Assembly (NCBI RefSeq): GCF_016863015.1 | Contig: NZ_BOOB01000014.1 | Coordinates: forward strand, 1-64,000 | Source of the DNA: Microbispora amethystogenes | Lineage (GTDB): Bacteria; Actinomycetota; Actinomycetes; Streptosporangiales; Streptosporangiaceae | Length of the DNA stretch: 64,000 nucleotides | Reading direction: 5' to 3' | Notes under the pieces: model-generated | Told to the model about the DNA's origin: nothing | The model's input: the letters and a program-made list of their open reading frames with translations, nothing else | Databases searched by the model: none | Shown: positions 25,561 through 63,807 of the stretch, piece after piece | Position numbering within the stretch: the stretch's first letter is position 1 | Layout of the letters: each line of letters opens with the position of its first letter | Position numbers and translations under genes: made by a program

Positions 25561-25588
<28 letters not shown>
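24752..25588 (+). CDS. EI24 domain membrane protein (CysZ-like)
   Basis: This 278-residue membrane protein has about five hydrophobic segments and the EI24/CysZ fold signature: an amphipathic N-terminus (GGFAEGIGFCFRGLGWV) and the DPFYEKLSEKVE loop. CysZ relatives transport sulfate in enterobacteria. No sulfur genes are nearby, so the substrate here is unassigned. Its last 28 bases overlap the 3' end of the convergent ABC-F gene. Confidence 0.82.
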
Positions 25589-27153
<1,565 letters not shown>

Positions 27154-27371
27154 TTGTTGACGCTCCGGAGAAGCTCAAGGACACACGGGTGGCGTGGAAG
27201 CGGGTGTCCGAGCTAGGAGATCCGGGGCAGAGACATGGCGCCGAGCGTAGGCCGGGTGCCCGGCCCGGTGCCACTGGTTTTCCGGCTGCCGGGTTGTCCA
27301 CAGGGGACGGCTGTCCCCAGAACGCGCTTCGGCCGTCTTGGGGGCGCGGCGGTCCGGCGAGGCTGTCCGCC

Positions 27372-53058: not shown

Positions 53059-53072
53059 CAAACAATTGTTCG
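53059..53072. promoter_or_regulatory. Candidate SOS box (LexA site)
   Basis: CAAACAATTGTTCG differs from the actinobacterial/Bacillus SOS consensus CGAACRNRYGTTYG mainly in the second base. With one flanking base on each side it forms a 16-base palindrome with a single mismatch (TCAAACAATTGTTCGA). Its position before lexA supports autoregulation. Confidence 0.65.
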
Positions 53073-61868: not shown

Positions 61869-62477
61869 TCACGGGCCGATGTAGTGGATCTCGATGCGGC
61901 CGTCCAGTCGCTTGATGTAGCCGGGATCTCCAATGCGACTCGCCACCACCGCTCCCGCCAGGCAGTCCGCCACCCAGAGCAACGGCTCCAGCGCACCGGC
62001 CATGTGCCGGACGCGAGCCCGCTCGGGCACCCGGCGTCGCGCGAGCAGCGCGTCCATGAGAGCCCGATCCTTTTTGTTCTGCGATGCCTCACGGGATTCA
62101 AGGACGATCTCTGCGACTCCTGACCTCGACAACTCCCAAAGCAATCGGTCCAGGCACTTTCGACGCCGTCGTTCCATGCTCGAGTTCGGGTCGCCCTCGT
62201 GCACCACGACGCCGAAGAGCACGTCGAGGTCTTCCAGAACGGCCATGATCTCCATGCGTCGGCATGCGGACTCCTTGGCCCAGTGAAGCTTGCGTTGCCC
62301 GTCCAAGCGGAGGTCGGCCATGCGTCGGCGGATCACCGGAAGTGCGGCACAGTGAACGGTGACTGCGGCAAGGAGATAGACATGGGGGTCGAGCCGCTGG
62401 TTGGACTCTGACTCGTCGATGAAGGCAACCCAGGAGTCGGCATCGATTGCGGTGAAGCTGTGGTGGGAGGACAGCAC
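61869..62477 (-). CDS. DUF3800 domain-containing protein
   Basis: This 202-residue protein has the DUF3800 pattern: an early aspartate in WVAFIDESES, a glutamine/lysine segment KLHWAKESACRR, IVLESREASQNKKD, and a final LLWVADCLAGAVVA motif with aspartate. DUF3800 is related to RNase H-like nucleases and is often found in phages, plasmids and defence islands. GC content and codon use are lower than in the rest of the window, suggesting acquisition. No ribosome binding site or partner is obvious. Function is unknown. Confidence 0.78.
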   Translation of the reverse strand: MLSSHHSFTAIDADSWVAFIDESESNQRLDPHVYLLAAVTVHCAALPVIRRRMADLRLDGQRKLHWAKESACRRMEIMAVLEDLDVLFGVVVHEGDPNSSMERRRRKCLDRLLWELSRSGVAEIVLESREASQNKKDRALMDALLARRRVPERARVRHMAGALEPLLWVADCLAGAVVASRIGDPGYIKRLDGRIEIHYIGP

Positions 62478-63356: not shown

Positions 63357-63518
63357 TCAGGCCGCCGAGGTGGGACCCGCCGTCCGGGGAAAACGGATGA
63401 CGTTCCCGCCCGTGTAGGCCCTGAGGTCGACAATCTTCCTGTCCTGCTGCTTGGGTCTGCGGCGCAGCGCGGGCCTGATGTCCCTGACCTTCGCGAGCGA
63501 CGGCACCACCGTGACCAT
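63357..63518 (-). CDS. Small basic protein (53 aa) with DLRAYTG motif
   Basis: This 53-residue protein starts at ATG 63518 with a run of six G plus A (GGGGGGATGCAAC) just upstream, a usable ribosome binding site. It begins MVTVVPSLAKVRDIRPAL, continues with an Arg/Lys/Gln cluster, and has KIVDLRAYTGGNVIRFPR before a short Ala-rich end. It shares DLRxx[ST]G with the 31-residue protein upstream. No known family is recognised. It is not a shadow of another gene, since nothing else is supported in this interval. Confidence 0.55.
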   Translation of the reverse strand: MVTVVPSLAKVRDIRPALRRRPKQQDRKIVDLRAYTGGNVIRFPRTAGPTSAA

Positions 63519-63565
63519 GTTGCATCCCCCCGACCGTGATGGTTCCGTTACCTTTCCGAATAAAT

Positions 63566-63770
63566 ACAGGAGGACGGGTAAAGCGGGCGTAAAGCTTCAG
63601 CCGTCACAGGAGTCTCAGTAGGGCAGGCGCCGTCCGGAGGGCGTGCGCAGGTCGAGATCGGCGGCGGGCCGGCGGATACGGCGAGGCCTCTGGATCCTGG
63701 TACGTCTCATGACCCTTGTCCTTCCGTGACACACGCAGACTATTCGCCCCGCCCGCCACCGTCCTCCTGT
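63566..63770. repeat. 12-bp inverted repeats flanking the 31-aa gene
   Basis: ACAGGAGGACGG at 63566-63577 is matched exactly by its reverse complement CCGTCCTCCTGT at 63759-63770. Allowing one mismatch, the arms extend to 16 bases with A-rich outer ends. The interval contains the complete 31-residue gene. No target-site duplication is visible, and the meaning is open. Confidence 0.6.
63615..63710 (-). CDS. Tiny arginine-rich protein (31 aa) with DLRTPSG motif
   Basis: The frame starts at ATG 63710, six bases after GGAAGGACAAGG-like sequence, and ends at TGA 63615-63617. It encodes 31 residues beginning MRRTRIQRPRRIRRP and ending DLRTPSGRRLPY. A third of the residues are arginine. The DLRxx[ST]G motif recurs in the 53-residue protein downstream, and the two are in the same orientation, 96 bases apart. 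A nucleic-acid-binding peptide or a peptide precursor are both conceivable; neither is shown. Confidence 0.5.
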   Translation of the reverse strand: MRRTRIQRPRRIRRPAADLDLRTPSGRRLPY

Positions 63771-63807
63771 TTTTGCGCGAGCGCCCCGTTTTCCCGGTTC
63801 CGCCAGG

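Follow-up and report, generated by a model that had tools for sequence, protein, structure and literature searches.

Near one end of a 64,000-nucleotide stretch of the Microbispora amethystogenes genome, analysed here as a whole and called the window, two very small open reading frames (ORFs) lie in tandem on the minus strand: a 31-aa ORF, MRRTRIQRPRRIRRPAADLDLRTPSGRRLPY, at 63615–63710, and a 53-aa ORF, MVTVVPSLAKVRDIRPALRRRPKQQDRKIVDLRAYTGGNVIRFPRTAGPTSAA, at 63357–63518. They raise the question of whether such short ORFs are genes at all, whether they are related to each other, and what proteins of this size might do. Directly upstream of the 31-aa gene is the 3′ part of a gene for an AhpD-like carboxymuconolactone decarboxylase (CMD, PF02627; 63808–64000, minus), which runs past the window end and has an ECF sigma factor with a weak SnoaL-like extension alongside. 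Downstream of the pair is a gene for a pyridoxamine 5′-phosphate oxidase-like protein (PPOX, PF12900; 62572–63276, minus), for which synteny extends to L008 and L017–L019; the order along the direction of transcription is CMD, 31-aa, 53-aa and PPOX. A further minus-strand ORF (61869–62477) gave a weak DUF3800-like match under the Pfam cut-off. An ECF41/COE (CMD) association has been described (PMC3426412), and the window pair likewise adjoins a CMD gene and an ECF sigma factor; however, the small genes lie outside the described locus, and the promoter of the 31-aa gene is not of the ECF41 type (TGTCACA...CGTC).

The two ORFs are real genes under purifying selection. As the original prediction held, they share one orientation, and each has a usable ribosome binding site, which is Shine-Dalgarno-like and reads GGAAGGAcaagggtcATG ahead of the 31-aa ORF and GGGGGGatgcaacATG ahead of the 53-aa one. 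The same-genus comparison set comprised 14 Microbispora genomes. The pooled dN/dS was 0.34 for the 31-aa ORF (14 aligned orthologs) and 0.16 for the 53-aa ORF (14 aligned sequences), compared with 1.3 to 3.7 for the shifted frames of both. The alignments of both ORFs also contained the predicted bias of variation to third codon positions, and the frame is kept in relatives.

Homologues of both peptides were found in other genomes, and those of the 31-aa protein retain the DLRxx[ST]G motif that had first drawn attention to it. They define a family of proteins of about 30 aa that combine a basic N-terminus with a C-terminal DLR[TS]P[SA]GRxLP[YF] placed directly before the stop codon, a signature that the window ORF fits at every position. 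The family is dispersed and multi-copy, with about 35 groups seen at more than 100 loci; relatives carry syntenic orthologs as well as paralogs elsewhere in the same genomes, and the genome of the window itself has at least two further paralogs, MKKVQIVQRPRPPRTPAPVDLRTPSGRVLPF (G000:C9) and MTRKQLKKSRPSGRPAARDEAPDLRTPSGRPLKF (G000:C62). Profile A3 detected the family in 81 of 150 genomes of Streptosporangiaceae, to which the window belongs, in 86 of 199 genomes of the genus Streptomyces (g42), and in just 6 of 296 phylum-wide genomes, one of the six lying outside the class. The best 80 matches of a search over 84,980 species genomes were all actinobacterial, and a search of plasmids for relatives of P0002 gave no match.

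The start codon, Shine-Dalgarno sequence and C-terminus recur across loci. When one representative of each of the 35 groups was compared, the tail residues D, R, P, S and G were invariant while their codons varied freely, and the stop codons were TGA in 27 groups, TAG in 6 and TAA in 2. Because the tail is invariant while codons and stops vary, it is the protein, up to its free C-terminus, and not the RNA that is conserved. The N-terminal half is basic, proline-rich and variable (median length 32, charge +6); RPRPPR or RPKP stretches are present in members of the family, and some, such as MKQVQVKRPTKTREVETDLRTPSGQPLPF, have no proline-rich stretch. The family gave no significant profile match in Pfam, NCBIfam or PHROGs, its profile matched none of the solved structures in the PDB, and the AlphaFold model of the 31-mer was a low-confidence one without a fold (pLDDT 69, pTM 0.14). 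Conserved, unannotated bacterial small proteins are already known as a kind. The prediction of an undescribed small-protein family was nevertheless borne out for the 31-aa protein, whose dozens of groups across Actinomycetota are unnamed in the libraries; neither these nor the literature searched gave a description of the family, its invariant tail or its repeated placement at stress loci. The 31-aa gene and its promoter are cleanly absent between the CMD and 53-aa genes of one complete Microbispora genome (G001, L008), which looks like a loss, and the copies in L250 and L254 appear decayed; the gene is therefore dispensable.

The 53-aa protein represents a separate family, nearly always with one copy per genome, found in 62 of 150 Streptosporangiaceae genomes. 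From the DLRxx[ST]G motif, which is indeed common to the two proteins, they had been taken for diverged members of one family, but the shared motif is insufficient for this: hhalign of the 53-aa against the 31-aa profile returned a probability of 2% (E 0.025, 14 columns). The two also differ in copy number, in range and in C-terminus, the 53-aa protein ending in FPRTAGPTSAA, unlike the 31-aa tail. Judged by sequence, they are neighbours whose homology is not demonstrable. The 53-aa profile gave only chance-level matches among solved structures, and the AlphaFold model of this peptide was likewise of low confidence. In most cases the 53-aa gene comes just after a 31-aa gene, with similar spacing (a strict pattern recovers 28 of 39 loci, and 5 more were recognised by eye); it is also retained without the 31-aa gene (L008, L259–L261) or beside a decayed copy (L250, L254). 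The 53-aa gene is best seen as a lineage-specific second companion to the 31-aa gene.

The 31-aa gene had further been described as flanked by inverted repeats, and a small mobile unit had been suggested. The repeats exist, as a 16-nt inverted repeat that is 94% complementary with its arms 181 nt apart, but they do not delimit a unit. The upstream arm (63759–63774) falls on the AT-rich element and the −35 region of the 31-aa promoter, and the other arm (63562–63577) lies inside the 53-aa upstream region. In an alignment of 20 loci, the promoter arm was conserved in other Microbispora while the other arm had diverged, so that complementarity was gone, with no compensating changes. A WblC/WhiB7-type promoter in one arm largely explains the repeat. 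We also considered a terminator or a transposon end and rejected both, since the repeat lacks conservation and a promoter occupies one of its arms.

No DNA copy of the repeat-bounded segment occurs elsewhere in the genome, the sole strong second match covering the neighbouring CMD gene, and the window has neither the conserved terminal inverted repeats nor the multiple DNA copies of a transposable or MITE-like unit. Relatives share protein sequence only, with different flanks, and the locus is syntenic across genera. That the ORFs are a small mobile unit, or chance ORFs without function, is hardly credible: the repeat in the window and the clean absence in G001 could be read in this way, but purifying selection and the invariant tail at more than 100 loci contradict it.

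The promoter of the 31-aa gene (63737–63774, minus) reads AAAAAC AGG AGGACG N17 TAGTCT. It matches the consensus of WblC-activated promoters, GAAAWY-N3-TKGMNN-N16-19-TANNNT, as given in PMC7157823, which also covers the role of WblC in translation stress; there are 2 mismatches in 13 specified positions, including the first base of the −35 element, and the consensus itself is degenerate. The block conserved across aligned loci is GAAAACGGGAGGACG-N17-TAGTCT. Other Microbispora orthologs usually have 1 to 2 mismatches to the consensus, one (L020) being without a match, and several orthologs outside Microbispora (e.g., L023, L026 and L249) have no match within 2 mismatches. When the window was scanned on both strands (128 kb) with 2 mismatches allowed and the −10 element exact, the motif occurred three times: before the 31-aa gene, as a perfect match at 27282, and at 53070 (minus, 2 mismatches). 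The perfect match (27282–27244, GAAAACCAGTGGCACCGGGCCGGGCACCCGGCCTACGCT) precedes a minus-strand gene (25561–27153) that we take, from the sequence itself and not from a profile search, to encode an ABC-F-like ATPase; ABC-F genes are classical WhiB7 targets. Among the 35 groups of the 31-aa family, a WblC-type promoter was present upstream of every member in 5, against about 0.2 expected from shuffles. Four of these 5 groups are at CMD/PPOX-type loci and possibly not independent; they may be one ortholog group split by clustering.

The genome encodes seven WhiB proteins, of which the WhiB7-like one (L244, G000:C30) ends in RKRPRGRPRKTPVAA and has a C-terminal AT-hook-like RGRPRK stretch of the kind typical of WhiB7. 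On these sequence grounds, WhiB7 is predicted to drive the 31-aa gene. The layout of its promoter is shared with the WhiB7/WblC regulon of ABC-F genes and translation-associated factors, as described for Streptomyces coelicolor WblC, and no member of the 31-aa family was found to be named in the portion of PMC7157823 available. The family differs from that regulon in that most of its paralogs have promoters other than the WblC type, which indicates that translation stress is not its general signal.

The surroundings of the paralogs are diverse. None of the neighbouring genes is shared by every group; within groups, DUF5999, PEP synthase and CMD/PPOX are found repeatedly. DUF5999 (PF19462), a family of small Cys-containing proteins, shares an operon with one large 31-aa group at 24 of 139 loci, and this two-gene unit recurs in L114, L152, L163, L159, L108, L082, L083 and L194; in two Nonomuraea loci (L102 and L109) the order is reversed, the DUF5999 gene following the 31-aa gene with a 4-bp overlap. 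DUF5999 is not homologous to the 31-aa protein and is absent from the window locus, and literature searches for DUF5999 and for the 31-aa motif found nothing. Some paralogs, in Streptomyces and elsewhere, lie 8–35 bp upstream of a PEP synthase, MetK or LuxR-like gene. In one Streptomyces group (L101, L117, L120, L137, L139, L153 and L168), the distance to a PEP synthase/PPDK-like gene is 15–35 bp; this group has universal-stress-like neighbours and, in some members, OsdR-like boxes. In one upstream region, GGGCCGATCGGCCC corresponds to the OsdR consensus core; in S. coelicolor, the comparable dikinase gene, SCO0208, has been reported as a target of OsdR (PMC5069765). In the OsdR-box scan at 3 mismatches, the shuffle expectation was nearly as high as the number observed. 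One Streptosporangiaceae group has sigma-B-like GTTT-N14-GGGTAA promoters, and promoters of the more general form GTTT-N13-16-GGGTA recur mainly within the MK[RK]VQIVQRPRPPR group. Another Streptomyces group has as neighbour what we take, by eye, to be a CsbD-like gene.

Two of the surroundings bear on an originally suggested role as a peptide precursor, which we consider unlikely. One paralog (L055, G002:C18) has a PALP enzyme gene on one side and an ATP-grasp L-amino acid ligase gene on the other, and the three may make up a small biosynthetic cluster; in Nonomuraea spiralis, another (L104) precedes metK by 10 bp. Both placements would suit a protein that is processed into a modified peptide (RiPP) or acted on by a tailoring enzyme. 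In this specific form the idea appears highly improbable: no modification enzyme recurs across groups, the neighbours are mostly unrelated with an ATP-grasp enzyme beside L055 only, and there is no variable core, the C-terminus being the most conserved part (A3).

As a working model, we tentatively propose, at somewhat below an even chance for the statement as a whole, that the 31-aa protein is a stress-induced small protein that acts in trans through its invariant tail on a conserved partner, most likely the ribosome. A mini-protein acting in trans is suggested because the protein is short, without a confident predicted fold, cationic at its N-terminus and invariant in its tail, and because its genes have varied stress promoters and often no downstream cistron. 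The gene in the window would be induced from its WhiB7/WblC-type promoter when translation is inhibited, for example by antibiotics. Its product, probably without a stable fold of its own, would likely gain affinity for RNA or the ribosome from the basic, proline-rich N-terminal half, and the tail, LDLRTPSGRxLP[YF]-COOH, would dock on a single conserved partner, which is most likely part of the ribosome or close to it. Paralogs beside other stress-linked genes would deploy the same tail under several stresses. Our first guess is the ribosome, given a promoter of WhiB7 type and the basic, proline-rich N-terminus, a composition that is in itself weak evidence for this target. Nucleic-acid binding, another of the roles first suggested, is possible.

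The same composition recalls proline-rich antimicrobial peptides (PrAMPs) of the apidaecin, oncocin and Bac7 type, to which the likeness is one of composition alone: short, cationic proteins with RPRPP-like stretches. Type II PrAMPs also carry their functional weight at the C-terminus, as the 31-aa protein may do, and PMC11549390, PMC11347161 and PMC13233979 describe them as binding in nascent-chain orientation and trapping release factors. It is quite unlikely, in our estimate, that the family consists of self-encoded PrAMP-like mini-proteins, specific to actinobacteria and wired into WhiB7, OsdR and sigma-B-type regulons, that modulate the ribosome by docking of DLRTPSGRxLP[YF]-COOH. Very unlikely is a closer equivalent of the insect Type II peptides, a self-encoded, proline-rich modulator that, once released, would rebind to the exit tunnel or stay in it and slow termination or initiation under stress. 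Such a modulator would account for the RPRPPR or RPKP stretches, the net charge of about +6 and the conserved C-terminal residues, but not all members have the proline-rich stretch, the LPY/LPF tail is unlike that of apidaecin, and composition by itself is weak evidence. Unlike the PrAMPs, the 31-aa family is bacterial and chromosomally dispersed, and its invariant tail is not theirs.

The model of a trans-acting protein matters for what it would imply. More than half of the genomes sampled from one actinobacterial family carry a member, as do about 43% of the Streptomyces sampled, and a genome often has several copies. That paralogs keep a 12-residue tail near-invariant despite drifting codons implies that they share one partner. 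Should that partner be the ribosome and the window copy belong to the WhiB7 response, the protein would contribute to intrinsic antibiotic tolerance in a way so far unrecognised.

A regulator acting in cis is the remaining alternative. The 31-aa ORF could encode a leader (arrest) peptide: under stress, its C-terminal motif would hold the ribosome at termination, and this stall would control the translation or transcription of the 53-aa gene. Its conservation up to the last residue before the stop codon would suit this reading, as would its fairly constant distance upstream of the 53-aa gene, with conserved sequence between, and the paralogs that closely precede PEP synthase, MetK or LuxR-like genes. 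We nonetheless regard it as unlikely. For many paralogs the next gene is on the opposite strand, which leaves no downstream cistron to regulate; in L110, L121 and L132, the two genes overlap tail-to-tail by 24 nt. The 31-aa codons and stop codon vary freely. The 53-aa gene, for its part, has its own conserved upstream motif and is still present at loci where the 31-aa gene is missing or has decayed. This upstream region (63560–63597, minus), conserved in the alignment of 20 loci, lies in the 53-aa leader (63519–63600, minus) and carries a pair of TTTAC direct repeats spaced by roughly one helical turn, with TATNTAT after them; it is a putative promoter or operator. The 53-aa leader of L018 and L041 also includes an almost perfect palindrome, TATCTATC-N4-G[AG]TAGATA-like, resembling an operator.
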